A stretch of DNA of 39,956 nucleotides from an uncultured Chitinophagaceae bacterium (GTDB lineage Bacteria > Bacteroidota > Bacteroidia > Chitinophagales > Chitinophagaceae): NCBI GenBank assembly GCA_903895845.1, contig CAITVK010000076.1, positions 1 through 39,956 on the forward strand, in the 5' to 3' direction. Of the stretch, positions 2,349-38,094 are shown piece after piece. A model generated the notes under the pieces. It ran no database searches and was not told the origin of the DNA. It saw only the letters and a list, made by a program, of their open reading frames with translations. The translations under genes were made by a program, and so were the position numbers. Position 1 is the stretch's first letter. The number at the start of each line of letters is the position of its first letter.

Positions 2349-2368
2349 GGCGATATATTTATTTGGAT

Positions 2369-3220: not shown

Positions 3221-3244
3221 TTATGAGATAATTGCCAATGTTTG

Positions 3245-8511: not shown

Positions 8512-8516
8512 TAACT

Positions 8517-8740
8517 ACATAAGAACAACCTGTGGCAACTGATGGCATAGTGTCGTTTACAGAAGAAATTGTTCTGAAGTATTATTAGAACCCACAGAAA
8601 AGTTAGTTGACTGTGCTGCAAAATCGTTGGCATTAACAGTGTAAGCTTATCCTTTCAAAATACCATTGTAACAGATGCTCCTTAATTATCATAGACATCA
8701 ATAGCGTATCTATTGGCTTATTGCGGCTGAGAAGAGAGGC
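8517..8740 (-). pseudogene. decayed fragment of an FN3/MBG-type gene, paralogous to the neighbouring gene
   Basis: Two blocks resemble the 5' part of the adjacent 1537-residue gene. Bases from 8517 (ACATAAGAACAACC, then TGGCAACTGATGG) align with those from 12724. Bases from 8591 (CACAGAAAA..TTAGTTG..CTGTGCTGCAAAA) align with those from 12892 and continue weakly to about 8740 / 13060. Roughly 90 nt present between the blocks in the intact gene are missing here, and substitutions and small indels have destroyed the frame. The fragment corresponds to about residues 137-250 of the paralogue and has the same orientation. It is a remnant of a duplication, not an expressed gene. Confidence 0.82.
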
Positions 8741-8751
8741 TCATCTCAAAC

Positions 8752-8791
8752 AAAAAGTGCAGCCCCATCTGTAGATAGAACTGCACTTTTT
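8752..8791 (-). terminator. terminator of the FN3/MBG T9SS gene
   Basis: A perfect 11-bp stem AAAAAGTGCAG/CTGCACTTTTT encloses an 18-nt loop. Read on the minus strand it ends in a T run and sits about 65 nt after the stop at 8856. Confidence 0.85.
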
Positions 8792-8855
8792 AACTTAGAG
8801 CTTAACCCGTATTACGTTTTGCTTACAACGTTCTACGTGTAACAAATATCTAATC

Positions 8856-11800: not shown

Positions 11801-13469
11801 CATTAGGTCCTGTAGCAGTACCAGTGTAGGTGTAGGTACCGATTGGGGTTACAGTTACTGTAGGCGTAATTGCTGCACTTGGTGTACCAGTGGCAGTCTT
11901 TGCACTTGCAGTGAGGTAGTTGTAAGTTGAAGTATTTACGCCATCCCATGTGTAAGGTATCAATAATAAATTGTAAGTAGTTCCAGAAGTCAATCCTGTG
12001 ATAGTTGTTGTTAAGGCAGGAGTAGTTGGCAATGTGGTTGAAGTGATGTTAACTAATGTACCTGCGCCAGCTACTGGGGTATTACCATTAGCAGAAGACA
12101 ATGAAGGAGTTGTACCAGAAGGAGCATAAATAACTAAATAACCTGCTTTGGTAGCACCAGAAGCTGGGAAAGAAGCGGTTGTCCAGTTAGCAATAATTTG
12201 TGTTGAACCAACTGATGTAGTGAAGCTAGATGGCTGAGCAGTTGCAGGATTAGAGAAAGTATAAAAGCTACTTTCAGAAGAATAACTTTGACCAGCACCG
12301 TTTGAGTATCCTTTAAAATAAATGTGTGTTTGTGGAGCAAGACCAGTAAATGATACAGTATAAGCACCAGCAGAAGTTGCTCCGTCAGTAGCAGATCCGT
12401 TTGTACTAGAATTAGGATTGTAGAAATTTTCGTTTCCAGAAGTAGTACTCCATTCTATACCTCTTGCGGTTATTGTACTACCACACAAACTGATAGTTGC
12501 ACCTAAAGTTGCAGCGGTAGATGATGTTACTGAGTTAGTAAGTGAAGCAAGTACAGGAAGACTGTATGTTGTTTGGTTGGCTGTTGGAGCACCAGTAGTA
12601 AAGTAGTTGTAAGTAGCCGCATTACTGCCATCCCAGGTGTAAGGCACCAACAAGAAATTGTAGTTGACACAAGAAGAAAGTCCTGTGATAGATGTGTTGT
12701 TATTGTAAGCATTTGCAATTGTTACATAAGAACAACCAGTGGCAACTGATGGACTAGTACCGTTTACAGAAGAAAGGGTTGCAGTAGTTCCAGCGGGAGC
12801 ATATATTAGCAGGTATCCAGCATTACTTCCATAATTAGTAAGTGAAGGAATAGTCCAGCTTGGAGAAAGTGTCCCTGAAGTATAGTTAGTTACCACAGAA
12901 AAATTAGTTGGCTGTGCTGCAAAACCATTAGTCGCAACAGTGTAAGCTTGTCCTTGTAAAACACCATTTGAATAGGTAACCGATGCACCGTGATCATCAT
13001 AGCCGTAAATAGCGTAGCTATATTGAGAACTTGCAGATAATGAAGAGATAGCTGCGGTGGTTGAAGTTCCTACATAAACAACAGTTGCATTGCCTAACGT
13101 ATTGCCAACAGTATATCCCATTGCATTTGCAGGAGAAGTGTTAGGGTAAGTAGAACCAGATGAAGTTGTTCTCAAAACAATATAGCCAGTTGGGGCAGAT
13201 GCCGGAGCAGTCCAGCCGATGGTCATACTTGTTGAAGTAATACTGGAAGCCACAAATGAAGTTGGTGCTGATGTAGCCATAGCCTTTTTTATTGCTTTGC
13301 CAGTATTTGTTGTTGCATTGGCACTCAAAACAATTACTAAAGTAGCTAGGGTGAATAACATTTTACTTTTAACCATTATATTTCTAAGTTTATTTGTAAT
13401 AGGCAGTAGGGAACTGCTGTAAACATTGTTTACTTGACTTACGAGATAAGAAGTAGAAAGGTTTGCCAT
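8856..13469 (-). CDS. large secreted FN3/MBG repeat protein with T9SS sorting domain
   Basis: The frame holds 1537 codons. A signal peptide begins at internal Met32 (MVKSKMLFTLATLVIVLSANA, coordinate 13376), making that the likelier functional start, although the A-rich leader and promoter fit the ATG at 13469 too. Domains in order: several FN3-like modules with recurring (Y)LLI/VIYAPxGTT and LVPYTWDG motifs (about 70-530); one to three MBG-type modules with TITASAQSKTY (about 545-780); a segment starting WVGLTSSD and NLSNW-like residues near 790; a low-complexity beta-rich stretch; and a C-terminal block of about 690 residues shared with the 3816-residue protein. The last roughly 75 residues form a type A T9SS tail (IYPNPVKTAL ... 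GVYVLEL ... EKFIKE). Probably a surface-exposed or secreted adhesin-like protein; no enzymatic motif is seen. Confidence 0.9.
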   Translation of the reverse strand: MANLSTSYLVSQVNNVYSSSLLPITNKLRNIMVKSKMLFTLATLVIVLSANATTNTGKAIKKAMATSAPTSFVASSITSTSMTIGWTAPASAPTGYIVLRTTSSGSTYPNTSPANAMGYTVGNTLGNATVVYVGTSTTAAISSLSASSQYSYAIYGYDDHGASVTYSNGVLQGQAYTVATNGFAAQPTNFSVVTNYTSGTLSPSWTIPSLTNYGSNAGYLLIYAPAGTTATLSSVNGTSPSVATGCSYVTIANAYNNNTSITGLSSCVNYNFLLVPYTWDGSNAATYNYFTTGAPTANQTTYSLPVLASLTNSVTSSTAATLGATISLCGSTITARGIEWSTTSGNENFYNPNSSTNGSATDGATSAGAYTVSFTGLAPQTHIYFKGYSNGAGQSYSSESSFYTFSNPATAQPSSFTTSVGSTQIIANWTTASFPASGATKAGYLVIYAPSGTTPSLSSANGNTPVAGAGTLVNITSTTLPTTPALTTTITGLTSGTTYNLLLIPYTWDGVNTSTYNYLTASAKTATGTPSAAITPTVTVTPIGTYTYTGTATGPNAATNTGTGTSYTFSYAGTGATTYGPTATAPTNAGTYTVTATVAANGNYTSASSSATAFTIATASLTITASAQSKTYGAFFNAGTTAFTTSGLVGSDAVTSVTLSTEGTINVGTYPITPSNAVGTGLSNYTITYVNGILTVNPAPLTITASAQSKTYSTTLSLGTTAFTATGLKSTDAISAVTLTSAGTVNTAAVGVYSIVPSAAVFSSGSSSNYTITYTNSTLTVNAGAVGLWVGLTSSDINTLSNWQSYSVPPASSNITIPAGTPYVPVLAAIAEVNNLNIATGVAPSLNGMTLIIDGAISGGGTLTSTPTSSLVINGAAGTINFTSGSNTIQNLTLNSGATATLGTQLNIVAGSNAGTVTIASGATLTTGGNLVLKSDINGTARIAQSAGSISGNVTVERYISAKTARKYSYIGSPVTANIRNSWQQQIYITGAGRGGSPCGATTGNGAASTDKYNTNGFDATSINATSMFTYSATLVNGSRYVSIPNTISTNLTPGIGYVVNVRGNRNSATVTCADQLASNYPTAPEAVTLSATGTVTTGDLTVALNNPSVYAFTLLANPYPSQISFTAFQASNSNINGTMWTYNPTGNGNYTTYSNGIIVNGATSFDNTSGNYIASGQAFFVQANAAGTVTFHESHKTSGALPNTKYFGTTVNKMVRVALKDEKDSSVLDEIVVRYNSNGSEVYTQGWDASSLSSGSQALASVKGTKRLAIATHSDAATADTTKLYVKSTSVGAFKLSFSDFKDIDNAKAIILVDKFLGTKQDIRANQVYDFKVTSDTTSVGYNRFEVIVGGTNTSALPVSFTAISATKAGNAVNVKWNTAKETNIASYEVERSSNGVAFTTINSTKAEAATSYAIEDASIPATASTLYYRIKAIGTDGTTEYSAIAKLSTHNSSLSTISIYPNPVKTALNITLGSTNGNYDVRIATIAGQQVFGKSGATLTNGKLTLDASNFASGVYVLELVDAKGNRQQEKFIKE

Positions 13470-13511
13470 GATTGTTTTTTTGTTGTTTATTTTTCTGTTG
13501 TTTTAACGATA

Positions 13512-13542
13512 CAAAAATGCAGGCATAAGAAAGGGTGTACAA
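13512..13542 (-). promoter_or_regulatory. putative promoter of the FN3/MBG gene
   Basis: On the minus strand TTG (13540-13542) is separated by 20 nt from CATTTTTG (13512-13519), one mismatch from TAnnTTTG. The predicted start point is about 30-40 nt before the ATG at 13469, or about 130 nt before the ATG at 13376. Confidence 0.5.
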
Positions 13543-13770
13543 TCCCTTGAATTGGGGGTATATGTTTAATATTTAAAATAAAAAATGATTTAATAGATAA
13601 AACAAAAAGAATAATTTCTTCATTACATAAAATTATTTTAAACTTTTATTTGACGAAAAGATAGATTCATATTTATGTATGGAGCGTCCTTAAGAGCGGG
13701 CGATATGACGCCGAGTAAATAAGAAGGTGTTGTTGATGATTACTTAATGTAAACCAAAGGCTGTAACTAT
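13543..13770. other. AT-rich divergent intergenic region
   Basis: This separates the FN3/MBG gene (minus) from pafA (plus). It is strongly AT-rich apart from a short GC-richer patch around 13680-13715 (GGAGCGTCC, GAGCGGGCG). No gene, clear hairpin or repeat was seen beyond the promoter elements listed on either side. Confidence 0.5.
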
Positions 13771-13778
13771 TACATTTG
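13771..13778 (+). promoter_or_regulatory. -7 promoter element of pafA
   Basis: TACATTTG matches TAnnTTTG exactly, 16 bp before the ATG at 13795. No TTG lies at the usual distance upstream, so the -33 element is weak or the gene needs an activator. Confidence 0.45.
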
Positions 13779-13794
13779 CGACAAATAAGCAATT

Positions 13795-15456
13795 ATGAAA
13801 CGTGTATTATATGTATTAATGGGAATATTATTGTTGCAAACAACCATTGCACAGACTAAACCTGCGGTTGATTCCAAAGTAAATACTGCCTTAAAACGCC
13901 CTAAATTAGTAGTGGGGATAGTGGTAGATCAGATGCGTTGGGATTTTCTATATCGTTATTACAATCGTTATAGCAGCAATGGCTTCAAGCGTCTTTTAGG
14001 CGAAGGATTCAGTTGTGAAAATACTTTCATACCCTACACGCCTACTGTCACTGCTGCGGGACATACCTGCATTTACACTGGTTCGGTGCCTGCCATACAC
14101 GGCATTGTAGGTAATGACTGGTATGATAAACTGGCGCAGAAGAAAACCTATTGCAGTGAAGATAATAGTGTAACCACCGTTGGAAATGAGGGTAATAATG
14201 GCAAACAAAGTCCGAAGAATATGTTGGTGACCACCATTGGAGATGAGATAAGACTGGCAACCAATTTTAGAAGTAAAGTAATTGGTGTGGCCTTAAAAGA
14301 CAGGGGTTCTATACTTCCTGCAGGACATAGTGCCAATGCGGCTTATTGGTACGATGTTACCACCGGTAACTGGATTACCAGTACTTATTACAGGACTACT
14401 CTCCCTAATTGGTTGAGTGATTATAATACAACGAAAGCCGTTGATAAATTCTACGAAAAAGGCTGGAATACACTCTATCCAATTGAAACTTATACTCAAA
14501 GTACTTCTGACGAAAAGGACTATGAGAACAAACCTTTCGGAGCAGAACAAACCAAGTTTCCCTATAGCCTTTCTAAGTTTAAAGGCAAAAACTATCAACC
14601 AATTGCAGCAACTCCATTTGGCAATTCAATGACTCTGGAAGTGGCAGAAGCGGCATTGGATAATGAACAACTAGGAAAAGGAAGCGAAACAGATATGCTT
14701 TGTGTAAGCTTGTCAAGCACAGATTATGTAGGGCATAGCTTCGGTCCTAATTCAATAGAGACAGAAGATACTTATTTGAGGTTAGACAAGGACTTAGCCA
14801 ATTTTATCACTTATCTGGATGAGAAAGTAGGTAAGGGTCAGTACACCCTTTTCCTTTCTGCTGACCACGGCGTAGCACATGTGCCAGGCTTTATGAAAGA
14901 AAATAAATTGCCAGGTGGCTTGTTTAGTGAAAATGAATTAGTAGCAAGTGTAAATGCCAAGCTGAAAGAATTATATGGAATAGACAAGGTAGTGACTGGA
15001 GTGATGAACTACCAGATACACCTTAATCATTCAGTGATTGATTCTGCTAATGCAGATGAAAAGGCAATAACAAACACTATCATCAAATACACAGAACAAA
15101 ATGAAGCGGTATCGCGTGTATTTGCCTTAAAGGACATTGCAGTGACTGCATTGAATGCTAAGGAAAAAGATATGCTGACCAATGGCTACTACCCTAATCG
15201 AAGTGGCGATATACAGATTGTATTAAAACCTGGATATATTGAGGCGTACGGCAATGGAAAAGCAGGTACTACCCACGGTTTGTGGGCGCCTTACGATGCG
15301 CATATCCCTTGTTTATTTTATGGATGGGGAATTAAGCAAGGGTATACCAACCGCGAGACTTACATGACAGATATCGCTGCCACCATCACTGCTTTATTAC
15401 ACGTACAAATGCCTAGCGGTTGCGTAGGGAAAGTGGTGGAAGAAGCGTTGAAGTAG
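13795..15456 (+). CDS. pafA: PafA-type alkaline phosphatase
   Basis: The protein has 553 residues with a 19-residue signal peptide (MKRVLYVLMGILLLQTTIA). The alkaline phosphatase superfamily core shows the residues known from Elizabethkingia PafA, all shifted by +7: metal ligand D45 (VVDQMRWD), nucleophile T86 in YTPTVTAAGHT, N107 in GIVGNDW, and the substrate pair K169/R171 in LKDRGSILPAGH. Further metal sites follow in STDYVGHSFGP, SADHGVAHVPG and, near the end, GTTHGLWAPYDAH. The length fits the family. PafA enzymes are broad phosphomonoesterases that act outside the cytoplasm and, in Flavobacterium, tolerate product phosphate. There is no T9SS tail, so a periplasmic enzyme is expected. 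It is alone on its strand and converges on dnaE; no Pho-box was identified. Confidence 0.93.
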   Translation: MKRVLYVLMGILLLQTTIAQTKPAVDSKVNTALKRPKLVVGIVVDQMRWDFLYRYYNRYSSNGFKRLLGEGFSCENTFIPYTPTVTAAGHTCIYTGSVPAIHGIVGNDWYDKLAQKKTYCSEDNSVTTVGNEGNNGKQSPKNMLVTTIGDEIRLATNFRSKVIGVALKDRGSILPAGHSANAAYWYDVTTGNWITSTYYRTTLPNWLSDYNTTKAVDKFYEKGWNTLYPIETYTQSTSDEKDYENKPFGAEQTKFPYSLSKFKGKNYQPIAATPFGNSMTLEVAEAALDNEQLGKGSETDMLCVSLSSTDYVGHSFGPNSIETEDTYLRLDKDLANFITYLDEKVGKGQYTLFLSADHGVAHVPGFMKENKLPGGLFSENELVASVNAKLKELYGIDKVVTGVMNYQIHLNHSVIDSANADEKAITNTIIKYTEQNEAVSRVFALKDIAVTALNAKEKDMLTNGYYPNRSGDIQIVLKPGYIEAYGNGKAGTTHGLWAPYDAHIPCLFYGWGIKQGYTNRETYMTDIAATITALLHVQMPSGCVGKVVEEALK

Positions 15457-24099: not shown

Positions 24100-27000
24100 T
24101 TAATTGCTTTCCTTCAAAAACTTCTCTTGGTGCTTATTGCCTTGCTTGTCTGTTAGTTCGAGTAAATAGACACCGCTTGCCAGGTTACTTGCATCCAGAC
24201 TCAACTTGCCATCTGTTACCGTAACACCAGCCTTACCATACACTTCCTTACCTGCTACTGTTACAATCCGCACATCATAATTACCTGTTGCTGCATTACT
24301 CAAAGTAATGTTTAGCGTACGCTGAACAGGATTGGGATAGACATTAATAGTGATGAGTGATGAATTATGAGTACTGAGTGACGCAATGGAACTGTACTTA
24401 ACTGCCCCATCAGTGCCAATTGCCTTAATGCGGTAGTACAAAGTTGTTGCATTCACCGGAAGGCTCGCATCTTCAACCGAGTAGTTGTTTATACCTGTCG
24501 CCTTCTCCGTTGTAATCGTGCTGAATACCGCGCCATTGGTGCTTCTTTCTACTTCGTAACCAACGATGTTTGCTTCATTGGCAATACGCCATTTGATAGC
24601 TGCCCCTTGTGTATTTTGTACCGCACTGATATTGGTAAAGTCTACAGGCAATGGTACTATATCACCAAACAACAACGCAAAACGATTCTTACCCTTACTA
24701 GCAGTGTCGCTGGATACATTGAAATCGTAAACAGGTGTTGCCTTTACATCTTGGTTAATACCCAAGAACTTGTCTACCAAAGTAATAGTTGCGGCACTAT
24801 TGATGCCCGCATAATCACTAAAAGTTAGCCGGAATGCACCTGTGGTACTACTGGTTAAACCTAGTTGTATTGTATCTGTCGCTAAGTTATCTGGTAAGGT
24901 GGCAATAGCCAAGGTCTTACCGGGTTTGGCAACAGATAATACCTGGCTAGAAGTGTTTAAGGACTCAGCATCCCAATCTGCGAGATACCCCTTAGAACCA
25001 TTACTGTTGAACCTGATGACAACTTCATCCAATGCATTATTGGCCGTTGTCTTTAGTCCAACCCTTAGCAACTTATTGTTAGCAACACCAAAGTATTGTG
25101 TGTTTGGGATAGTGCCACTTGCTTTGTGTGCCTCGTGGAAAGTAACACTTCCTGCTGTGTTGGCTTGCACAAAGAATGCCTGACCAATAGCTATAAAGTC
25201 GCCATGAGCATCGTCATAACCTGTAGCGCCATTGGCAATCACACCCGCAGAATAAGTGCTGTAGTTGCCATTTCCAAACGGACTATAAGTCCACATTTTA
25301 TTATTGATATTGGCATTGGTAGCTTGAAAGGCTGTATAACTCAACTGGCTAGGATAAGGGTTAGCCAACAAAGTATATTTATGAACCGCAGGATCATTCA
25401 ATGCTACCGTAACATCTCCTTTGGTAATTGTACCAGTAGCACTTAATGTTACAGCTTCTGGTGGGGTAGGCGCACCTGTTTCCAGCTGATTGGCACAAGA
25501 AACCGTTGCACTATTTCTGTTGCCACGTATGTTTACAACATAGCCAGTGCCAGGGGAGAGTGTTGTCTGTTCTGTATTGGCGATGCCAACATAGCGGCTT
25601 CCGTTAACTGGAGTAGCCACATAGTTATAAATAGTCGGTGCATTGTTTTGGGTAGCGTCGAAGCCATTGTTGTTGTATTTGTCTGTACTACCACCATCTC
25701 CCGAAGTAGTTCCGCAAGGGACACCACCTGTTCCATAACCAGAAACATAAATCTGTTGTTGCCAGCTGCTGCGGATTGACTGCGCCACCGGACTACCTAT
25801 ATAACTGTACTTACGGGCAGATTTTGCAGTGATGTATCGTTGGACTGTAACGTTGCCAGAGATTGTTCCCAATACTTGGTCAATACGGGCAGTACCATTA
25901 CTATCAGAAAGCAAAGTAAGGTTGCCACCAGTGTTAAGCGTACCTCCCGTAGGTGTAACAGTTCCCTTGATAAATAAGGCATTGCCCAACGTAACAGTAC
26001 CGGATGTATTGATTGTCATGTTGTAGAGTGCATTGGTTGTATCTGCTTTAGTGGCATCAAAATATACAGTGCCAGCTGCACTTCCTGTCAAAGAAAGACT
26101 AGATGCAGGAGAACCCGTTATACTACCAGAGCCAGTGATAGTTCCATTGATGGTCAATCCAAAACCATTCAGGTTAATGCCTCCCGTTAGCGACAAATTA
26201 TTTACAGATAGATTAGCAGAGAGCTTAGGTGTAGTATTGCTGATGATCACATTGGTTGCTGAAGTAGGAAGACCGCCACACCAGTTAGTAGCACTGTTGG
26301 CATCACCACCATTTAAACCAGTGTATGAACCAGTGACACATCCAATTGCCCCAGTGTTGCCCACGACAAACAAGTTTGTGATGCCACTGCCCAACCCAAT
26401 GCCAGTTTTATTTAGGGTGTAGGGGTTTGAACCAGAAGGCGTACCAACAGTATACACTGAATAACCAGCTGCTGAGATACCTAAGTCGCAAGAGGTTGTC
26501 GGACTGAAGCTTGCGGCACCATCTGTGTTATTAAACTGATAGGTGATACTTGCAGTTGTTGCCGCAGAACTGAGTACAGACCATTGGAGATTGACTATTT
26601 GAGAAGGCGTATTAACCGTTAATGTAATTGGACTCGTTACTGCAACAGAAAGATTGGATGTTCCAATGGTATTGGCAATGGAAATAGGTGCATAAGAAGT
26701 AGCTGTTCCCACAGGGAAAGTAATACTCGTTGTAGAGACACTATTCTTGATAAGTAACCCTGTACCTGCCGTAACGATATAACTAGTAGAAGATCCCGAT
26801 GGCATGGTAGCCACGGTAAGATTGCTGTTTCCCAAAGATAAATAACCACTTGTAAGTGTTAATGTGCCAGACACCGTGAAGTTGCTAGTGCTTAATGCAA
26901 TAGTATTGGAACCACTACTTGTATTATTTATAGTTAAATTGTTGAATGTTTCTGTGGTAGCAGCAGAAATGGTTTGATTACCAGTACCATTAAAGACTAT

Positions 27001-30000
27001 CGTATTTCCAGAAACAACCAATGAACCAGTTGTGAAAGTTGCAGAGCGGGTATAGTTTCCAGCCACATTGATAGTGCCACTTGCTAGGGTAACATTACCA
27101 CTTCGTACCCCACTAATCGTCAGGTTATTATAGCTGTAAGCAGGAACAGTCTGAGTACCCATACCATTAAAGTTTATTGTACTACCAGTTGTTACAAAGC
27201 TGCTGGAAGTGTAGGAAGACGTGTTGGAATAGGTGTTTGCTACGCCAATTGTTCCACTACTGGCCAAAGCCACATTAACCGTTCTTGCACCCGAGATTGT
27301 AAGGTTGTAGTAGTTGAAAGCAGGAATCGTTTGTCCTGGTTGTGCCACACCACCACCCGAAGGAATGATAAATGAGATTGTACCTGCTGCTATACGGGTA
27401 AATAATCCCGGGTTGAATGTATTGGATACCGCAATGCTTGTAAATGTTGGCGGCTTTGTTGTATCGGTGCCAGTGAACCCAACGTTATAGAAGTTAAATG
27501 ATGGTAGTGCTTGGTTGTTTCCAGCAATATTTACAGTAGTTTTATTAAAGACTACACCACCCGTATTTGAACAAGTGATGGTGCCATTGAAAGTGAAAGT
27601 TCCTGTGCCTAAACCCGAACCTGCATCCATATTTCTTGATGCACCTGTACCTCCATCGATATCTATATTGTTGTAGGTACCTGGTTGTATAGTGTAATAT
27701 GCCGTTGCACTGTAGAATATGACAGAGCCTGTCCAAATCTTGTTAGCAGGGAAAGTACCAGTTGTCTTGATGGTTCCCAATCCTGCATTGCTAAAGCTAG
27801 CACCAGCCGTTAGGGTATTAGAACCCATATCCAGAAGACTTCCTGTATTTAGTGTAAGTAGTCCATTCACGATGATTGCGCCACTTGCAGTTTGAGAACC
27901 ACTAGTATTGCTTATGGCAAGTCCGGTAGTATAAGTACCCGCCATGACAGATTGCGCGCCTGCCGCGTTATTATAATTTACGGTAAATGCCCAGGTTCTA
28001 CCAGTTGGTACAGGCGTAGCTGAAGCATATTGGGTATTGAAGGTTCCTGTGCCAGAAGTGGTGAGTGATGCTCCACCCAACAACTGATTGGCTCCCATAT
28101 CTAAAACAGCACCAGAAGCAATAGTAACCAACGCAGACGTACCTACAGTTAAGTTATCAGAAGCAGAAACAACACCACCTGTATTAGTTACAGAAAGGCT
28201 ATCAAAGGTTTCCCCTCCTGCTCTGGTAATTAATTGATTACTTGTACCATTAAAGGTGACAGTAGTCGTTTTGATTGGCGTAAAAGTGCCATTGTCAGAC
28301 CAGTTGCCTGAAACATTGATATTGCTACTAGAATCTGTAAGTGTACCGCTCGCAATAGTCAAGTGATTAAAGTTACTTATACCTGTGCCAGCTACCTTGG
28401 CTGTGCCAGAGAAAATAGTAGTACCAGTCTGACCATTGAATATACCGTAGTTTACAAAGTTGCCATTAATAGACAAAGTATTAGTTAATAAGGAAACCGT
28501 ATTGCCCGCATTGATGGTAATGCCTGCAACTGTCTGAGAAGTTTCAATGGATAAGTTGTTAGAACCTGTTTTAGCTACCACAACACTATCAGTAGTTCCT
28601 GGCAGATGTGCAGGAATCCAGTTGGAAGTATTGCCCCAAGTGGTATCTACAGCACCAACCCATTTGTAAGATGCAGCACCAAAGTTCCAGTTGGTATTAT
28701 CCCCAAAGTTGTAGCTGTTAGTGGTACTGATGGCTGTTGTATTACTATTCAGATTATCCGTAACGGCAACATAACTAATGGTTCTCTTTCCGATGGGGTT
28801 GATGAGAGCCTGAGTACCTGCGGTGCTGGATAATAAATACAACACATTGCCAGAAGTGCCCGTTAAGACAAGAGAGTCATTGATGGTCTGTGTTGATCCT
28901 GCAGGAAGGTAAAGAGTATCTGAAGCCGACACAGACTTTGTTAGCTTATTAAAGGTATTGTTCCCTATGATTGACTGTTTAACACCATTCAATATTACCT
29001 TACCTGTACTTGCATTGAATGTTCCATTGTTAATAAAGTTACCCGCTATACTTAGGTTAGCAGCAGCATTTAAAGTAGAAGAGGCGGAAATGATGATACT
29101 ATTAAAGCTAGTAGCGCCAGAAATAGTTGTGTTTCCATTAAAGTTGATAGTGTCTCCTGTTACAGTAATGGTGCCTGTTCCTGAATTGGAGGTGTAGTTG
29201 CCAGAAACATTGATGGTACCTGCAGGGAGTATTCTACCACCCGTAGTTCCTCCCGATACATCTAAATTATTATACGTACCAACAATAACAGACTGTGTTC
29301 CGGTTGTACTATAATACTTTACAGTGCCACTGTAAGTAAGTCCTGAAGGTAAAGGGGCATTACTTACACTCTGCGTTTTGATGGTACCCGCATTGCCCGT
29401 TCCTGTTGCTAATGTAAAGGAGCCACTTAAGTCGAAAGTAGACATATCTAGCGTTGCGCCTGTACTGACTTGTAAGTTACCATTGAGTGATAAATGGTTG
29501 GTAGCAGTCACACTTGCAGTGGTATTAGATATTATTAAGCTGTTAAATGGAATGGAAGACGAACCATAAATTGTTTGCGCAGCAGTACCATTCATTGTGA
29601 TTACGGAACCTGAGTTTACCAATGAACCACTAGTAAAAGATAAGCCATTCAAGGAAAGATTACCACTCACACCAATCGTACTTCCCAGTGTTACACTGTT
29701 TGTTTTTGTTCCACTGATTGTAAGGTTGTTATAATTAAAGCTTGGGACAGTCTGTGCAATAGTTGTTCCATTGAAATTGATTGTTCCTAAACCACCAGCA
29801 GTAGTTATACTACCCGGCTTAAACACACCGGCTATATTAATAATCCCATTATATAACTGTGTTTGAAAGCCTCCGGTTAAATCGAGGTTATAGAAATTAC
29901 TGGCAGGAACTGTCTGGTTATTTCCCTGAAAGGCAACAGTAGATTGCAATGGTGTTGTTGTACCTGATGTAGGCGTAAAAGACCCCGTCAGCTTGATAGT

Positions 30001-33000
30001 GTCTGTCGGATTACTTATACCACAAAATACACGAGGTCCGTTGTTACCACCCGAAATGTCTAGGTTACTGTAAGTACCCGCTGAAACTGTTTGCGAACTG
30101 GTGTTATAGTAAACAACGGTCCCACCCCATGTTTGATTAGGAGGTAAAGCCCCTGTTGTATTTGTATTAGCTGTCTTTAGGGATCCTGTTCCTATAACGC
30201 TGGAAAGTGTACCTCCCATCTGATAGGTACCCATATCCAGTGTACTTCTATAAGCAAGATTCAATGTATCATTTACATTTACATTGCCATTAGCAGTGTT
30301 ACTGTTGTAGGTATTTGAAACCAGTAAACTTCCGTAGGTTCCACTTTGCACCGTTTGATTTCCATTGACATTGTTGTAGTTTACATGACCTGTCCATGTA
30401 GCACCACCAGGTAGTGAAGCAGCGGCAGTGGATTGTGTCCTAAGTGTACCTGTGCCTGTTGAAACCAACATTGTGCCTGTGAGAGAATAACTACTCATGT
30501 TAAGCGTATCTCCTGTCCCAAGATTCAGCGTATCAGAAACGGTTATATTACCACCTGCGGTAAACAAACCATTGCCAGTTGCATTAACAGACAAGCTTTT
30601 ATAATTACCGGGAACTACTGTTTGACCTCCTGTTCCATTATTATACTCAATCTTTACCCCCCATGTAGTGCTAGGTGTAATAGGAGTAGTGGAGATACTA
30701 GTTGTTTTGATGGTACCCTTTCCGGCTGTTGTACCATAACATACTAAATCACCACTTAACTGAAGTGTACTGTCAATACGTATGGATGCCCCGGATTGTA
30801 TGGTGATGGTGCTTGCAGAATCTGTCATTCCTCCTATATAAGGGAAATATAGGTTGTTAGAAACTGTTGGGGCTGTATCATCATTCAAAGAAGGATCGCC
30901 CACATTTTGTAGTGTAGTAATACCAATATTCGGAATTACAACAGAAGAAGAAGAAGTTGGTACCGTAAGTGTTGACCAATTATTGGCATTATTCCATAAA
31001 CTATCCTGAGCGCCCGTCCAGTAAATAGCTGTATCTGTAGGATTTAAACTGATGGTAGTCCTACCCGCTGAATTCAATGAAAAAGCAATGGTATTCGTAA
31101 CCCCTTTATTATAAACATATAACCTGCTCTTATCATTATTCCACGTAGTAATAGGTAATGAGTCTCCGTTGTTATAAGCAAATAGTAATACCTTAAACTG
31201 AGGATCCACACTATTGCTTTCTACCATTAATCTGTTTAATCCGGAGAGGGCATAAGCCCCAGCATCCGAATACCCAGGAACAGTATTGCTGATAGCCCCA
31301 TTGTTATTTAATACACGCACTAGTAATCTTCTGTTTCCAGAGGCTTCTTTCAATATGATATCATTCTGATAATTTGCATTGGTTAAGTTAACAGCTGTAC
31401 TTGCAATTGTAACATCCGTAGGCAATTGACAAAACCACTTATAGTTATTAGTACTACTATTCAATTGGTTATCATCTGCGATGATCACATACGGGTTAGT
31501 GGCTTGAATTAAAGAAACGGTACGGAACATCTTTTTATAAACACCATTAGGTGTAGCATTTTTTTGAGCATACCGCAAATAGGATGGCTGCGTAAAAGCC
31601 TGATCACTGTAAGAAAGCCTGTTGTAGTAAGAAGTATTGTCGAAGCTATAGTATGGAGAGTACCTGAAACTATTTGGACTAGCCGTTACTGCTGTTACAC
31701 TTGGTGGGGATAGGTTGGGATTATCACCTGTCCAGCCGCCAAACTGGCCATACCATTTGTAACTGTAAGGGATTGTAGCGTCACCTGCTATGGACAGCAT
31801 ATTGCTGCTGTCTTGAAAGTAAACGATTTTTCCGGGAACAGATAGATTTCCCCCATCGGCACTTGAAGCAGATGTATCCAATGTTGCACCATAATTATTA
31901 ACCAATATACCACTCGCCGAACCTACACCCGTTGCAGCTAGAGCATCAAATTGAGAGTTGGCATCACTACTTGGTCGTGGAAACCAGATACGACCTAAGG
32001 CACTTAACACTACTTCGTTCTTATTAGCATAAGTATGACCACCCATATCTTGCCTGTTGGCGAAGAAAACCGTGGTAGCGGTAGAATCGAAACCACTTCT
32101 TAAAGTAGCAAACCCTCCCAGAGAATCAAAATACATGGGGTTATTGTTGAATGCTGTCTTTGCTTCGGTAGGTAAGGAAGAAGTGAAATAATCGGATGCA
32201 AACAACAAGCCTGTTAAGCGGGTGTTGAAATAACTACCTGCACCAACACCACTTGCATAGTTATCATTAATAGCGGTATAGAAGTAATAGTTAGGACTGA
32301 GGGATGAATTGTAAGGATAATTTGCAACTGGTTTTTGCATGTAGTTCTTCCATACGTAATCAATCGCAGTATCATAGGGGAAGATCCACTTTAATCCTAT
32401 CACATCAGTAGCACCCTGCCTCCAGCCACCTGTAGATGGAGAAGTAAAATTAGGATACGCATAGTTATTGCTTTGCGTACCACCTAACAAATCCGTTCCC
32501 AAAAATGAATACCCGAATGGCTGTACAATAGCAGGCAAATATTTGGTTCCATAACTTCTTACGGATGGATGGCCAAGCATGCTGTACCCCCTTTTTGCAG
32601 CAGCATATAAATCGGGGATATCTAGTTGGTCTTTCCCTAATCCTTCATATACATTACCCGTTTTACTATATACACCATAAGTAAGAAAGTTCCATACACC
32701 CCTTAGATACAAGTTTACTGTAGTAGTATCTTCAGCAGTGTAACCGGGTTCTCCCTCAACTGCAAAGAAATAAGTTACACCCTGAGGGAAGGTCATCCAG
32801 TTGGATGTATTTGTATAAGAAGCTGCTTCCATACCATGAAAGTTGCTACTATCTGGCAACATCGCCATCAATGCCATTCTTACCGTGTCCTGTTGACCTG
32901 TTGTCATCTGGTCATATAAGAAATCATATACATAGTACATATTCGCTCCACCAAACTGCGATGCATTTGCGGCATTCAATGGAGTTGTCGTATTCGCCAA

Positions 33001-35550
33001 TGCCTCTTTCGCCCAAGTAGTGATAGCATTTGCCAATTTGTTGGCACGGGTTGAATAGTTGAGACCTGTTGCAGGGTCATTTTGATTTCTAAACAACCAA
33101 CACTCCATAGCTTCTTGTGCAAACATATAGGTCATTTTGCCGCCGTTACCATTCCACAATGTACTGTAGTTATAAGCACTGTTTGTACTGGTATCCCCTG
33201 CTGCCAGATAATTATAGTAAGGTTGAACATTCCATTCACCACCATTGGTAATATATTGATTACCTAGCGTGTCTTTATTGTAGTAGCCCGTATAACTGAA
33301 CGTTCCAGCAAATCTGCCAGCAGTAGTTCCATAACCTAAATTCAGCATGGTAGTAAACGCATGTATCCAATGGGCTGCTGATTTACCACTGTACGTATTT
33401 GCCAAGCGCCATCTGATGCTGGTAGAGTCACTTGGATTAATAAATACTCGTGGGTGTTGACCAACAGGTGCTGCATGTGAAATCATACGCAGTCCTGTCA
33501 TATCTTCTGTTGCCGGCGTAATGTCAGTTGCGGGACCAATACCATTTGGTGCCCATATCGTAGTTGGATCTAAGAAACTAAGATTATAAGTAAACCCTCC
33601 TTGCGCAGAATCTGCAACTAATACAGACTTTTGAGACGACCAGTTAGATGCACCTGAAATTCCTACAACGGTATCTATAAACTTATATTGATACGTGTAA
33701 GTATTGCCACTAGTAAGCAGTGAATCGTTGTAATAAGTATTTGTTTGATACCCACTGTTGGTACTGTTAGTTACATTCTGAAAATACACCTTAATAGGTA
33801 GTCCTGTTCCCGGCAAGGAGGCCGACATATAAGTTTTTCCTGTACCTGCATATTGTGGCAATGTACCCCACGCTGGAGTAAAGGTATTAGGTATGGCAAA
33901 GATGGAGTTAGAAAAGGGACTTTCTTTTCCTGGAGCATAGACTGCACTCACCGTGTAGGTATAGGTGTTTCCGTTTGTCAGATGGTAATGTGCATAATAG
34001 GAAGGAACCCCACTAACGCTATCAATTGCAGTTGTTGCCCCCCCATTTACACTTACATAAATTTTAGTATATGCAACAGGATAGGTGAGCGCAGATGAAT
34101 CTATAAACAAGTAGTCGTAGGTATTGCCTGCAAAAACAGAGGTGAGTGTAGGAGCCGGAGAAACACTAACGGTAGTAGAAGTAAAAGATGAAATCAAAGG
34201 TATGGTAGAAGTCAGGCTGCCTTTTGGCGCGTAAATTATGGTGTAATAACCATTAGACAAATCATTTCCATCTAACCGAAAGGACAATTGATTGGTGCCT
34301 GCGTTGATGGTATACGAATTAACTGCAACAATATAATTGTTTCCACTATTAAAATAGCCACTTGTTGGGTTATATAGAAGATAGTAACTGTTATTTGCTG
34401 TATCTGGTGCGGATAGTCCATAAGCACTAAAATCAAAATATACATTCACCAAACCACCGTAACCACTCGCATCTGTTTTATTCAGGAACCATGCTCTGTT
34501 CCAACGGCTAAATCCACCAGTACCTTGCGCAACTGTTCCGGTAAGTTTATTATCTGCCGCCATAATGTAACTACCAGCAGATCGTAAAAAGCCAGTAATA
34601 CCATTTACATTTATTAACCCTAATCCATTTGTAGAACTTGTGTAAGAAATACTGTCATTGCCCCCCTCTGTTCCAATACCTACAAGGTCATTAACAAAGG
34701 CAGTATTGGTTGGATAATAATAAGAAGACCCCACATAGGTCTGTAACGTATCTAACATGCCCCATTTGGCCGCCAGATAGGTTTCTACAATTCTTCTGCC
34801 CGACTTTTTAGTATCAAAACCAGCTAATACAGTTTCACTCACTCCCCAATGTACAGACGAGTAAAAACCAGTTCTGTTACCAATAGTGCCGCTTAAAGTT
34901 GTTGCTGCTGTAGATACGCCATTAGAGCTTAAAGACCCTGTTCCGTTATAGTAGTAATAAGAATAAGTACTACTTTTTGGTGTATAGTTCTCAGGGATAA
35001 GCCATTGCCCACGCAAATCGTTGTAAACACTATAATAATAACCGGTATTATTCCGCATAGCGGTTACTTCGTACTTAGAATCAACTGTTACATAACGCAA
35101 ACCTATTAATGGTGTGCCTTGCGTGCTGTTGGTTGAGTTAGAGAAAGTGCCATATCTAAAATCCGTTAAAGCAGATGGAGCATCCGGGTACACATGAACT
35201 ACCTGTGCAATGTTAAATCCATTTTGAGGTGCAACTAATGCATTAGTTGCAATATCGAGACCTTGAATTCCATTAAACTCTACAATGTTATTTCCATCTT
35301 GTGTAGATAAAACAGGTTGTTTAGAGGTGGTAGCCTGGGTAGCAGAAACATTATTCGATTTATCCTTCCATCCGGTTATTAATCCTGCGGACTTTGTGAA
35401 AGTGGAAGTGTCAGAAGCATCAAACCATAGGTTAATCTTGCTTTGAGCAAACCCACCAGGATAATATTGAGCATTTGTTGAGGAAACAGAAACGACGATA
35501 CAGAAAACAAAAACAAGCAATTGAATAAGACTCTTTTTCATAAATGGCAT
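24100..35550 (-). CDS. giant secreted heparinase II/III-like lyase with long beta-repeats and T9SS domain
   Basis: The frame has 3816 codons. Met4 (35541, MKKSLIQLLVFVFCIVVSVSSTNA) begins the signal peptide and may be the true start. Regions: a LamG/DUF8202-like segment at about 30-280 (INLWFDASD ... RRIVETYLAAKWGM); FN3-like modules at about 455-650; an alpha/alpha-toroid-like region at about 690-1130; and a beta domain with RSGF and GHTYANKNEVVLSALGRIWF (about 1145-1190), the heparinase II/III signature of polysaccharide lyases, to about 1500. From about 1510 to 3070 come roughly 20 beta-repeats with NLTISG and GNNQTVPxxNFYNL-type words, broken by W(T/V)GAxDxxWxNxxNW motifs at about 1510 and 2295. 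The last roughly 690 residues match the 1537-residue neighbour, ending in a T9SS tail (VYPNPVQ ... GVYLLEL ... KFLKESN). Probably a surface polysaccharide-cleaving protein; substrate unknown. Confidence 0.9.
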   Translation of the reverse strand: MPFMKKSLIQLLVFVFCIVVSVSSTNAQYYPGGFAQSKINLWFDASDTSTFTKSAGLITGWKDKSNNVSATQATTSKQPVLSTQDGNNIVEFNGIQGLDIATNALVAPQNGFNIAQVVHVYPDAPSALTDFRYGTFSNSTNSTQGTPLIGLRYVTVDSKYEVTAMRNNTGYYYSVYNDLRGQWLIPENYTPKSSTYSYYYYNGTGSLSSNGVSTAATTLSGTIGNRTGFYSSVHWGVSETVLAGFDTKKSGRRIVETYLAAKWGMLDTLQTYVGSSYYYPTNTAFVNDLVGIGTEGGNDSISYTSSTNGLGLINVNGITGFLRSAGSYIMAADNKLTGTVAQGTGGFSRWNRAWFLNKTDASGYGGLVNVYFDFSAYGLSAPDTANNSYYLLYNPTSGYFNSGNNYIVAVNSYTINAGTNQLSFRLDGNDLSNGYYTIIYAPKGSLTSTIPLISSFTSTTVSVSPAPTLTSVFAGNTYDYLFIDSSALTYPVAYTKIYVSVNGGATTAIDSVSGVPSYYAHYHLTNGNTYTYTVSAVYAPGKESPFSNSIFAIPNTFTPAWGTLPQYAGTGKTYMSASLPGTGLPIKVYFQNVTNSTNSGYQTNTYYNDSLLTSGNTYTYQYKFIDTVVGISGASNWSSQKSVLVADSAQGGFTYNLSFLDPTTIWAPNGIGPATDITPATEDMTGLRMISHAAPVGQHPRVFINPSDSTSIRWRLANTYSGKSAAHWIHAFTTMLNLGYGTTAGRFAGTFSYTGYYNKDTLGNQYITNGGEWNVQPYYNYLAAGDTSTNSAYNYSTLWNGNGGKMTYMFAQEAMECWLFRNQNDPATGLNYSTRANKLANAITTWAKEALANTTTPLNAANASQFGGANMYYVYDFLYDQMTTGQQDTVRMALMAMLPDSSNFHGMEAASYTNTSNWMTFPQGVTYFFAVEGEPGYTAEDTTTVNLYLRGVWNFLTYGVYSKTGNVYEGLGKDQLDIPDLYAAAKRGYSMLGHPSVRSYGTKYLPAIVQPFGYSFLGTDLLGGTQSNNYAYPNFTSPSTGGWRQGATDVIGLKWIFPYDTAIDYVWKNYMQKPVANYPYNSSLSPNYYFYTAINDNYASGVGAGSYFNTRLTGLLFASDYFTSSLPTEAKTAFNNNPMYFDSLGGFATLRSGFDSTATTVFFANRQDMGGHTYANKNEVVLSALGRIWFPRPSSDANSQFDALAATGVGSASGILVNNYGATLDTSASSADGGNLSVPGKIVYFQDSSNMLSIAGDATIPYSYKWYGQFGGWTGDNPNLSPPSVTAVTASPNSFRYSPYYSFDNTSYYNRLSYSDQAFTQPSYLRYAQKNATPNGVYKKMFRTVSLIQATNPYVIIADDNQLNSSTNNYKWFCQLPTDVTIASTAVNLTNANYQNDIILKEASGNRRLLVRVLNNNGAISNTVPGYSDAGAYALSGLNRLMVESNSVDPQFKVLLFAYNNGDSLPITTWNNDKSRLYVYNKGVTNTIAFSLNSAGRTTISLNPTDTAIYWTGAQDSLWNNANNWSTLTVPTSSSSVVIPNIGITTLQNVGDPSLNDDTAPTVSNNLYFPYIGGMTDSASTITIQSGASIRIDSTLQLSGDLVCYGTTAGKGTIKTTSISTTPITPSTTWGVKIEYNNGTGGQTVVPGNYKSLSVNATGNGLFTAGGNITVSDTLNLGTGDTLNMSSYSLTGTMLVSTGTGTLRTQSTAAASLPGGATWTGHVNYNNVNGNQTVQSGTYGSLLVSNTYNSNTANGNVNVNDTLNLAYRSTLDMGTYQMGGTLSSVIGTGSLKTANTNTTGALPPNQTWGGTVVYYNTSSQTVSAGTYSNLDISGGNNGPRVFCGISNPTDTIKLTGSFTPTSGTTTPLQSTVAFQGNNQTVPASNFYNLDLTGGFQTQLYNGIINIAGVFKPGSITTAGGLGTINFNGTTIAQTVPSFNYNNLTISGTKTNSVTLGSTIGVSGNLSLNGLSFTSGSLVNSGSVITMNGTAAQTIYGSSSIPFNSLIISNTTASVTATNHLSLNGNLQVSTGATLDMSTFDLSGSFTLATGTGNAGTIKTQSVSNAPLPSGLTYSGTVKYYSTTGTQSVIVGTYNNLDVSGGTTGGRILPAGTINVSGNYTSNSGTGTITVTGDTINFNGNTTISGATSFNSIIISASSTLNAAANLSIAGNFINNGTFNASTGKVILNGVKQSIIGNNTFNKLTKSVSASDTLYLPAGSTQTINDSLVLTGTSGNVLYLLSSTAGTQALINPIGKRTISYVAVTDNLNSNTTAISTTNSYNFGDNTNWNFGAASYKWVGAVDTTWGNTSNWIPAHLPGTTDSVVVAKTGSNNLSIETSQTVAGITINAGNTVSLLTNTLSINGNFVNYGIFNGQTGTTIFSGTAKVAGTGISNFNHLTIASGTLTDSSSNINVSGNWSDNGTFTPIKTTTVTFNGTSNQLITRAGGETFDSLSVTNTGGVVSASDNLTVGTSALVTIASGAVLDMGANQLLGGASLTTSGTGTFNTQYASATPVPTGRTWAFTVNYNNAAGAQSVMAGTYTTGLAISNTSGSQTASGAIIVNGLLTLNTGSLLDMGSNTLTAGASFSNAGLGTIKTTGTFPANKIWTGSVIFYSATAYYTIQPGTYNNIDIDGGTGASRNMDAGSGLGTGTFTFNGTITCSNTGGVVFNKTTVNIAGNNQALPSFNFYNVGFTGTDTTKPPTFTSIAVSNTFNPGLFTRIAAGTISFIIPSGGGVAQPGQTIPAFNYYNLTISGARTVNVALASSGTIGVANTYSNTSSYTSSSFVTTGSTINFNGMGTQTVPAYSYNNLTISGVRSGNVTLASGTINVAGNYTRSATFTTGSLVVSGNTIVFNGTGNQTISAATTETFNNLTINNTSSGSNTIALSTSNFTVSGTLTLTSGYLSLGNSNLTVATMPSGSSTSYIVTAGTGLLIKNSVSTTSITFPVGTATSYAPISIANTIGTSNLSVAVTSPITLTVNTPSQIVNLQWSVLSSAATTASITYQFNNTDGAASFSPTTSCDLGISAAGYSVYTVGTPSGSNPYTLNKTGIGLGSGITNLFVVGNTGAIGCVTGSYTGLNGGDANSATNWCGGLPTSATNVIISNTTPKLSANLSVNNLSLTGGINLNGFGLTINGTITGSGSITGSPASSLSLTGSAAGTVYFDATKADTTNALYNMTINTSGTVTLGNALFIKGTVTPTGGTLNTGGNLTLLSDSNGTARIDQVLGTISGNVTVQRYITAKSARKYSYIGSPVAQSIRSSWQQQIYVSGYGTGGVPCGTTSGDGGSTDKYNNNGFDATQNNAPTIYNYVATPVNGSRYVGIANTEQTTLSPGTGYVVNIRGNRNSATVSCANQLETGAPTPPEAVTLSATGTITKGDVTVALNDPAVHKYTLLANPYPSQLSYTAFQATNANINNKMWTYSPFGNGNYSTYSAGVIANGATGYDDAHGDFIAIGQAFFVQANTAGSVTFHEAHKASGTIPNTQYFGVANNKLLRVGLKTTANNALDEVVIRFNSNGSKGYLADWDAESLNTSSQVLSVAKPGKTLAIATLPDNLATDTIQLGLTSSTTGAFRLTFSDYAGINSAATITLVDKFLGINQDVKATPVYDFNVSSDTASKGKNRFALLFGDIVPLPVDFTNISAVQNTQGAAIKWRIANEANIVGYEVERSTNGAVFSTITTEKATGINNYSVEDASLPVNATTLYYRIKAIGTDGAVKYSSIASLSTHNSSLITINVYPNPVQRTLNITLSNAATGNYDVRIVTVAGKEVYGKAGVTVTDGKLSLDASNLASGVYLLELTDKQGNKHQEKFLKESN

Positions 35551-36428: not shown

Positions 36429-37169
36429 ATGCGCATATTACTCTTAATCATTCTTTCTTGCATTTTTTTCCTCCCACAAAATACAAGTGCTCAAAAGATA
36501 ACTGTCACATATAGTGGCTATCCTATCGACCCAAATATCAGAAAAGACTCCTCAATGCTTAGCTTCCTTTCTAGCTACCGAGACAGCGTTATTAAATCTA
36601 TGGGAGCAGTCATTGGATTCTCTACAACAGGTCTCAGCAAGCATCAACCAGAAAGCGGTTTGGGCAACTTTATGACCGATGCCTTGAAAACAATTGGCGA
36701 GCAAGTATTCGGGCAACATATAGATGCAGCATTTGTAAACTATGGAGGCGTGCGGTCTTACCTACCCAAGGGAAATATTACAGTAGGAAATATCTTCGAA
36801 CTGATGCCTTTTGACAACGTACTGGTACTACAAAAAGTTAAAGGTGATTCATTGCTTTCCTTTCTCAACCATATTGCGGATAAAAATGGGTGGCCTGTTA
36901 GTGGCATCACCCTTGCAATTAAAGAAAAAAAGGCTGCAAATATTTTAATTGGAGGTAAACCACTCTCTACAGACAGCGTCTATACCATTGCAAACTCCGA
37001 CTATATTGCAAACGGTGGCGACGATACCAACATGCTAAAAGTTTTTCCACAAGAGAAGAAAGGTTACCTAATAAGAGATGCGCTGATAACTTACGTAAAG
37101 TTGCTGACGGAAGAAGGAAAACCCATTGACGCTAAAATTGAAAAAAGAATTGTCTATGCCGATCAATAG
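36429..37169 (+). CDS. 5'-nucleotidase C-terminal-domain protein, exported
   Basis: The protein has 246 residues with a signal peptide (MRILLLIILSCIFFLPQNTSA). The rest is the substrate-binding domain of UshA-type 5'-nucleotidases (PF02872): ESGLGNFMTDALK (about 76-88), DAAFVNYGGVRS, GNITVGNIFELMPFDNVLV, then YTIANSDYIANGGDDTNML near 190. In ordinary enzymes this domain follows a metallophosphatase domain in the same chain; here it is encoded alone and the catalytic domain is the next gene, overlapping by 14 bp. The two proteins presumably assemble in the periplasm to hydrolyse nucleotides or sugar nucleotides (inference). Such split pairs are known in Bacteroidota. Confidence 0.9.
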   Translation: MRILLLIILSCIFFLPQNTSAQKITVTYSGYPIDPNIRKDSSMLSFLSSYRDSVIKSMGAVIGFSTTGLSKHQPESGLGNFMTDALKTIGEQVFGQHIDAAFVNYGGVRSYLPKGNITVGNIFELMPFDNVLVLQKVKGDSLLSFLNHIADKNGWPVSGITLAIKEKKAANILIGGKPLSTDSVYTIANSDYIANGGDDTNMLKVFPQEKKGYLIRDALITYVKLLTEEGKPIDAKIEKRIVYADQ

Positions 37170-38094
37170 AAGGAAATTTATTCAGCAATCTGCTCTTACA
37201 GGAGGCGCATTGCTTACGTCTTCCATAATTGGAAAAGCTTTTGGGGAAACAAATTCTTCAAAAGATACACTTACCATACTTCATACCAATGATGTACACA
37301 GCCGATTGGATCCCTTCCCAATGGATGGCAGCAAAAATGCTGGATTGGGCGGAGTGGCTGCCAGGTCAACCATCATTCAACAAATAAGACAGGAAACAGA
37401 TAATGTTTTATTGTTGGATGCCGGGGATATATTTCAAGGTACTCCTTACTTTAATATATATAAAGGCGAACCCGAAATAAAAGCAATGAGTCTGATGGGC
37501 TACGATGCCTGCACAATGGGCAACCACGACTTTGATGCTGGCATCGAGAACTTTGCAACACAACTGAAGCACGCCAATTTTCCAGTACTACTTTGCAATT
37601 ACGATTTCACAAATACACCCATGGAGGGCAAATCGGTTCCTTACAAGATATTCCAGAAAGGCAATATAAAAGTGGGTGTATTTGGTGTAGGCATCGAAAT
37701 GAAAGGACTGGTGCCAGACAACCTTTATGGTAATACAATTTATAAAGATCCTATCGAATGCGCCAATACAACGGTAGACTTTTTAAAAAGACATGGTTGC
37801 GATATGATTATTTGCTTATCGCACCTTGGGGATAAGTATGATGACAACAAAGTGAGCGATGAAATATTGGCAAAAGAGACTTATCACATCGACTTGATAT
37901 TGGGAGGACACACACACCGTTTTTTTCCTGAACCCAAGAAGTATTTGAACAAAAATAGTGGGGATACTTTGGTGAATCAGGTAGGTTGGGCAGGGCTTCA
38001 ATTAGGTAGATTGGACTATAATTTTGATGGTAAGAAAAAGAAAAATTTGCTGAAAGCCAATGTGGTATTGATTGGAGGGAAAATTGGAAAATAA
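37156..38094 (+). CDS. 5'-nucleotidase metallophosphatase-domain protein with Tat-like signal
   Basis: The ATG at 37156 gives 312 residues beginning MPINRRKFIQQSALTGGALL, a twin-arginine signal (RRKF). An ATG at 37126 would prepend ten residues and is less likely. The calcineurin-like core carries the metal-site motifs in order: HTNDVHSR, LLDAGDIFQGTPY, MGNHDFD, SHLGD and GGHTHRFF, so the two-metal active site is complete. The chain stops where the 5'-nucleotidase C-terminal domain would normally start; that domain is the preceding gene. Translational coupling through the 14-bp overlap is likely. Role: phosphate and nucleoside release from nucleotides outside the cytoplasm. Tat export would fit loading of metal before export. 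Confidence 0.92.
   Translation: MPINRRKFIQQSALTGGALLTSSIIGKAFGETNSSKDTLTILHTNDVHSRLDPFPMDGSKNAGLGGVAARSTIIQQIRQETDNVLLLDAGDIFQGTPYFNIYKGEPEIKAMSLMGYDACTMGNHDFDAGIENFATQLKHANFPVLLCNYDFTNTPMEGKSVPYKIFQKGNIKVGVFGVGIEMKGLVPDNLYGNTIYKDPIECANTTVDFLKRHGCDMIICLSHLGDKYDDNKVSDEILAKETYHIDLILGGHTHRFFPEPKKYLNKNSGDTLVNQVGWAGLQLGRLDYNFDGKKKKNLLKANVVLIGGKIGK

Follow-up and report, generated by a model that had tools for sequence, protein, structure and literature searches.

The lyases built on the heparinase II/III-like scaffold and human DS-epimerase share a Tyr-His-Asn set of active-site residues, whose roles are disputed from family to family (PMC12088678, PMC8006597, PMC11848413), and the published tables consulted give a catalytic Tyr for every lyase with this scaffold (PMC12088678, PMC12915356, PMC11848413). 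The sets reported are Asn192/Tyr246/His401 in GAGase II, His311/Tyr365/His531 in Atu3025 and His337/Tyr390/His555 in exoHep (PMC12088678 Table 4, PMC7904915), Asn238/Tyr291/His444 with Tyr470 in PL33 (PMC11848413), and His205/Tyr261/Tyr473 with His450 and a metal site at His452 in human DS-epimerase 1 (DS-epi1; PMC8006597). Tyr261 of DS-epi1 has been equated with PL33 Tyr291 and PL15 Tyr365 (PMC11848413). For the PL40 enzyme Uly1040, the residues described are Asn245, Trp246, Glu301, Tyr305, Asp358, His485, His487 and Tyr511, and the mutations Y305K and Y305R abolished activity (PMC12915356). The second active-site Tyr lies 23 residues past the His in DS-epi1 (PMC8006597) and 26 residues past it in PL33 (PMC11848413) and PL40 (PMC12915356). 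A Lys has been proposed as the acid in uronate beta-elimination by the ulvan dehydratase P29_PDnc, whose K303I mutant is inactive (PMC8511951); this is a different enzyme, used here as a chemical precedent only. In the open-licence literature searched, titles and abstract openings did not name a catalytic Lys in the heparinase II/III-like scaffold.

Giant T9SS-exported proteins with a sorting domain and Gly/Ser/Thr/Asn-rich repeat modules are known from Bacteroidota. The giant described here is encoded in a contig of 39,956 nucleotides from an uncultured Chitinophagaceae bacterium, the whole of which was analysed (the window), and it differs from other T9SS giants, several of which occur in this window and genome, in adding a lyase-like core of a rare type with Lys at the catalytic Tyr position (Lys-type). 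The point of interest is the Tyr-to-Lys group rather than the giant size, an elaboration on a core that is found as a stand-alone protein in other cases. A natural Tyr-to-Lys group with fixed Asn, Glu and His is a direct test of the role of the Tyr. If the Lys-types are active, another residue can stand in for the Tyr and the scaffold supports a broader chemistry than has been stated; if they are inactive, they represent a conserved family of acidic-glycan binders, which annotation would label as lyases. Either outcome would correct the reading of such genes in Bacteroidota.

Coding sequence and parts of the giant

The giant is a single ORF on the minus strand (24100-35550) with an ATG start, 3816 aa and zero internal stops, which is exactly the uninterrupted 3816-codon frame described in the initial annotation, and blastp identified two full-length relatives (L034, 3990 aa, 49% identity; L041, 3952 aa, 45% identity). 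Complete fused-type frames are 1637 to 4672 aa long, and the source genome assembly comprises 4.0 Mb in 138 contigs. Comparison of the core with those of L049 and L034 gave pN values of 0.09 and 0.13, respectively, and pS values of 0.73-0.79, at or near saturation; the low pN at near-saturated pS indicates that the frame is coding and under selection rather than open by chance. The parts of the giant are as follows.

24100-35550, minus strand: giant with T9SS sorting domain (ORF listing, Pfam, full-length relatives)
35470-35550, minus strand: signal peptide, residues 1-27 (judged by eye from the sequence)
34141-35469, minus strand: conserved N-terminal module, residues 28-470 (profile A6, relatives)
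33571-34140, minus strand: FN3-like modules, weak, residues 471-660 (fn3 matches of relatives; boundaries by eye)
31036-33483, minus strand: heparinase II/III-like core, residues 690-1505, ~820 aa (family profiles; toroid and beta-sheet region by homology)
28681-31020, minus strand: repeat module 1, residues 1511-2290 (search of own genome; boundaries by eye)
26371-28662, minus strand: repeat module 2, residues 2297-3060, which partly duplicates module 1 (limits set by eye)
24343-26370, minus strand: C-terminal region, residues 3061-3736 (resembles that of the neighbouring T9SS protein by blastp)
24121-24342, minus strand: T9SS sorting domain (Por_Secre_tail), residues 3737-3810 (Pfam)

Por_Secre_tail was the sole above-cut-off Pfam match of the giant (residues 3737-3810, E = 6e-12), a firm match that bears out the T9SS tail noted initially, and the search of the whole giant against NCBIfam returned nothing meaningful. 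The N-terminal ~470 residues are conserved (profile A6). The LamG-like label originally given to this region was not borne out, as none of nine N-terminal regions matched a LamG model at E values up to 1. The FN3 assignment is weak: four of the nine relatives matched fn3 (best E = 0.0011), and the giant's own copy matched no family.

In two of three pairs, no other part of the giant is as well conserved as the core (85% identity to L049 and 81% to L034, against 26-73% for the other parts); the L041 pair is the exception, with 57% identity in the core and 29-60% in the other parts. Against L034 and L041, the least conserved part is the sorting tail, followed by the stalk formed by the repeats (37-49% identity, against 81% and 57% for the core). 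The last ~80 residues of L034 and L041, though these are otherwise full-length relatives, share 26-29% identity with the sorting end of the giant, and the tails look as if they had been exchanged or were evolving fast. The longest fused-type protein seen (4672 aa; L037, positions 719-14737) has an end that is by eye unlike Por_Secre_tail. Another locus (L042, positions 1380-14423) contains two fused-type genes in tandem (2115 and 2105 aa); it gives two matches to the N-terminal module and lacks room for the long stalk.

Superfamily placement and active-site residues of the core

Searched as a single sequence, the core alone (residues 690-1520) gave nothing meaningful against Pfam, NCBIfam and the PDB (phmmer), and neither the giant nor its core matched Hepar_II_III_C (PF07940) or DUF4962 (PF16332). 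Two relatives, both paralogs, showed sub-threshold matches to Hepar_II_III_C (0.0048) or DUF4962 (2e-4). Profiles of the fused type alone (A1), of the fused type plus stand-alone paralogs (A2) and of the broadest set (A4, 23 rows) were searched against the PDB. A1 matched a single lyase, the alginate lyase Atu3025 (3e-6, or 3e-4 for the best single stretch), and A2 matched Atu3025 at 1.8e-10. With A4, the best match was PL15 Atu3025 (3A0O; 8.7e-13), and matches were also obtained to PL35 GAGase II (8KHV; 6e-8, spanning both regions), human DS-epimerase 1 (6HZN; 2.5e-6), heparinase III (2.7e-4), PL15_2 exoHep (6LJA; 7e-4) and, more weakly, a PL35 chondroitinase (0.15) and heparinase II (0.2), part of this reach coming from the paralogs in A4 with a weak Hepar_II_III_C or DUF4962 match. 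The profile matches to solved lyases make it well supported that the core belongs to the heparinase II/III-like superfamily, and at this level the initial call was right. The predicted fold, an alpha/alpha toroid plus a beta-sheet region, rests on these profiles. AlphaFold, with three input sequences, gave a mean pLDDT of 28 for the core (831 aa) and of 33 for its first 440 residues. Two database records match the core at 85% and 80% identity.

Four candidate active-site residues were located.

32800-32802, minus strand: Asn917 codon, neutraliser position (GAGase II Asn192, Uly1040 Asn245), with Trp918 next (alignments)
32644-32646, minus strand: Glu969 codon, the E that never varies in the E-x3-(K/Y) motif (alignment of 56 frames, Uly1040 pattern)
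32632-32634, minus strand: Lys973 codon, at the catalytic Tyr position (DS-epi1 Tyr261; alignments)
32035-32037, minus strand: His1172 codon, catalytic/activating His (Atu3025 His531, DS-epi1 His450; alignments)

In the HMMER alignment of A4 with 6HZN, YEGVAY of DS-epi1 and YEGLGK of the giant are aligned ungapped, with chain Tyr239 (Tyr261) on Lys973 (core position 284), chain His428 (His450) on His1172 (core position 483) and the Asn before His205 on Asn917 (core position 228); adding 22 to the chain numbers gives His205, Tyr261 and His450 all at once. DS-epi1 has this motif and the His450 loop in common with the giant, but its His205 corresponds to Trp918, its Tyr261 to Lys973 and its His452 to Tyr1174, which occupies the second (metal-site) His position. 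The His531 loop of Atu3025 and the His555 loop of exoHep align to His1172; the toroid His and Tyr of both enzymes lie outside the printed local alignments and correspond, via DS-epi1, to Trp918 and Lys973. PL15 and the giant differ with respect to DUF4962, which the giant's core does not match. GAGase II, a profile match in both regions, has Asn192 followed by Trp, and His401, in common with the giant.

Uly1040 was compared by its published residue pattern alone (PMC12915356). Its Asn245-Trp246, Glu301 four residues before Tyr305, and His485 resemble Asn917-Trp918, Glu969 four residues before position 973, and His1172 of the giant, whereas its Tyr305 is Lys973 and its His487 is Tyr1174. The PL40 pattern of Asn-Trp, Glu-x3-Tyr and His-x-His is thus represented in the giant by Asn-Trp, Glu and the first His, and the Tyr and the second His are absent. 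The entry 9VTK did not appear among the A4 matches in the PDB copy searched. Since GAGase II and Uly1040 also have Trp after the Asn, Trp918 is unremarkable, and it is Lys973 that stands out. No second active-site Tyr was found 20 to 29 residues past His1172 in the giant.

The placement of the GAGase II Tyr against this Lys differs between methods. The HMMER alignments with 8KHV (A2 and A4) set Tyr246 opposite Tyr968, not Lys973, with a gap near the Lys, whereas in the MAFFT alignment of 56 frames the PL35-like L107, with the motif EGYGY (DGAYPEGYGYWGY), has its Tyr on the Lys973 column. The printed A2-profile alignment with the PL35 chondroitinase 9O3Q stops before the Lys973 position. The 8KHV alignments would suit a canonical Tyr-dependent lyase, in which our alignment is off and the neighbouring Tyr968 or Tyr961 is catalytic. 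We consider this highly improbable, as the Tyr968 column, which is Leu in some of the Lys-types, varies (Y 28, F 11, S 5, L 3, K 1, T 1, V 1), and so does the Tyr961 column (Y 24, F 14, D 8, T 5, S 2, N 1). Moreover, the Tyr-type paralogs align with the giant ungapped, EGIVY against EGLGK, and like L107 they put a Tyr on the Lys column.

The initial annotation had stated that loss of the His/Tyr pocket residues would refute its lyase reading, and half of that loss is observed. Asn917 and His1172 of the pocket are kept, but the catalytic Tyr is Lys973, as in 42 of 53 frames; the GGHTYANKNE...SALGR signature is present as described, and its His is residue 1172. Because Lys replaces the catalytic Tyr, the lyase label is one that we infer rather than read from an intact active site. 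The earlier interpretation is half right, in the superfamily and the export signal but not in an intact lyase pocket.

Lysine and tyrosine at the catalytic position among relatives

The 56 frames are the matches of profile A5 (E = 1e-5) among the loci collected for this comparison, aligned with MAFFT. The catalytic-Tyr column contained K in 42 frames, Y in 11 and a gap in three, and no other residue; the pocket columns were uniform wherever a residue was present (Asn 54/54, Glu 53/53, His 53/53). Five of the Tyr-types are 850-aa paralogs from the same genus (EGIVY), another is L126, and the remaining five are distant PL-like proteins. The Lys-types consist of 12 fused-type frames, nine from families f12 and f18, ten of ~860 aa, six of 1180-1556 aa, in which the motif is one residue shorter so that their Lys rests on gap placement, two of 1070-1092 aa, one of 1060 aa, one of 823 aa and one fragment. 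Their pairwise identity is 17-97% (median 27%), and Asn and Glu are invariant, as is the His in those that reach it. Among the 520 columns that are at least 95% filled, 17 are invariant in the Lys-types, including N, E, H and K, in sequences that are related by descent, and since K is the selection criterion of the set, only the invariance of N, E and H counts. In a tree built from 52 frames, after removal of four fragments and of the Lys column, the Lys and Tyr states need two changes, with a program warning of long branches, and the Tyr/Lys swap may have had a single origin.

The H-x-H pair is kept in all nine f12/f18 Lys-types, eight of which have a Tyr 20-26 residues past the first His. 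In the 12 fused-type cores, the second His is replaced by Y, F or L; no Tyr occurs from His+20 to His+27, and three of the cores have one at +28 or +29. The second His was found in none of the ten ~860-aa Lys-types and, as the metal-site His, in 10 of the 11 Tyr-types. If H-x-H is the metal site, as it is in DS-epi1 and Uly1040, the fused type would have lost this site.

We put at about even the chance that the giant is a T9SS-exported, multi-domain heparinase II/III-like enzyme that cuts a uronic-acid polymer extracellularly by beta-elimination, with Lys in place of Tyr. Asn917, with Trp918, would neutralise the uronate carboxylate, His1172 or Lys973 would take the C5 proton, Lys973 would give a proton to the leaving glycosidic oxygen, and Glu969 would position the substrate; the activity, the uronate substrate and these residue roles are what we infer for the core. 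Somewhat more tentatively, the Lys-types may constitute a new enzyme family that has the heparinase II/III-like scaffold, acts on uronates and depends on an invariant Lys in place of the catalytic Tyr; its members would extend from stand-alone proteins of ~860 aa to the T9SS giants, 3800-4700 aa long, of uncultured Chitinophagaceae.

The strongest counter-evidence to Lys catalysis is the inactivity of Uly1040 Y305K and Y305R (PMC12915356), which suggests that a natural Lys needs a re-tuned pocket or that the protein is now a binder. The missing metal-site His and second Tyr, the 8KHV alignments and the narrow reach of A1 also count against the lyase reading. As a binder, the giant would be a pseudoenzyme whose core has lost beta-elimination and holds an acidic glycan in a lectin-like manner, with the repeat stalk serving adhesion. 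We regard this as rather unlikely, although the loss of activity in the engineered Tyr-to-Lys Uly1040 (PMC12915356) and the lack of the metal-site His and of the second Tyr in the giant speak for it, because N, E and H are unvarying across the Lys-types reaching them, exactly the residues that a binder need not keep, and because the core is under strong purifying selection.

T9SS export, which is usual for degradative enzymes, argues against a related but different uronic-acid reaction (C5 epimerase, dehydratase or exolytic oligosaccharide elimination) with Lys as the natural acid/base, and we judge such a reaction to be quite improbable. It would fit the presence of human DS-epimerase among the A4 profile matches and the Lys acid proposed for uronate dehydration by P29_PDnc (PMC8511951).

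At the genus level, 12 fused-type copies were found in 7 of the 13 genomes searched. At the order level, outside the genus, A1 detected the core in 10 of 297 other genomes, in families f12 and f18 and as one fragment in f2; these frames are 1017-1175 aa when complete and shorter at contig ends, all too short for the giant's stalk. At E = 1e-10, A1 matched 2 of 395 genomes of the phylum sample and 11 of 298 of the order, and A5 at E = 1e-8 matched 6 of 296 genomes, the source genome being counted in each, indicating that the family is rare in these samples. Pfam DUF4962 matched 15 of 61 genomes, three above cut-off, in short pieces, and only those matches that also matched A5 were used. Two scans of viral sequences for further relatives found none.

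Repeat stalk, export and genomic setting

The long repeats pointed out at the start are real and comprise two related modules, both of which open with the motif W-x-G-A-x-D-x-x-W-x-N-x-x-N-W (from residues 1511 and 2297). When the source genome was searched, residues ~1638-1994 matched ~2434-2802 at 43% identity. The beta-helical nature of the repeats is a guess from composition, on which the profiles searched are neutral. In the exported enzyme, the modules would serve as a spacer that separates the enzyme from the C-terminal sorting domain, and it is plausible that they hold the enzyme far from the cell surface. Stretches similar to the stalk are present in two other giant frames of the same genome (4260 aa and 3569 aa), and in an unmasked blastp without composition correction a neighbouring 1537-aa T9SS protein matched the stalk and the C-terminus with 40% identity across 1553 aa, so that this likeness is partly compositional. 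This makes the stalk a generic part, and the recurrence of such modules in these proteins would also agree with an adhesive acidic-glycan binder. The 1537-aa neighbour lies at 8856-13469 on the minus strand and contains MBG_2, fn3 and Por_Secre_tail domains.

Export by the T9SS is plausible, given the sorting domain and the presence in the own genome of an SprA gene, the sole T9SS component searched for. A search for the SusC/SusD families found none in the giant or in the 14 other window ORFs of at least 150 aa, the contig being no longer than the window, which agrees with the initial observation that such genes do not flank the giant. Their absence nearby in the window points towards the binder, but the own-genome stand-alone 857-aa Lys-type adjoins a TonB-dependent receptor, a frequent arrangement for degradative enzymes, and this favours an enzyme.

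Contig C34 of the same genome (L035, positions 3439-11526) carries the 857-aa Lys-type and an 850-aa Tyr-type with the TonB-dependent receptor between them, and the locus appears to be a PUL-like setting with both catalytic-residue states. Around the relative in genome G004, the four scanned frames of at least 400 aa encode a PKD/Ig protein, an IgGFc-binding-like protein, an OmpA protein and a tRNA synthetase, the first two with T9SS C-termini. In the window, two slightly overlapping ORFs at 36429-38094 encode a 5'-nucleotidase C-terminal domain (246 aa) and then a metallophosphoesterase (322 aa), with the C-terminal domain first.
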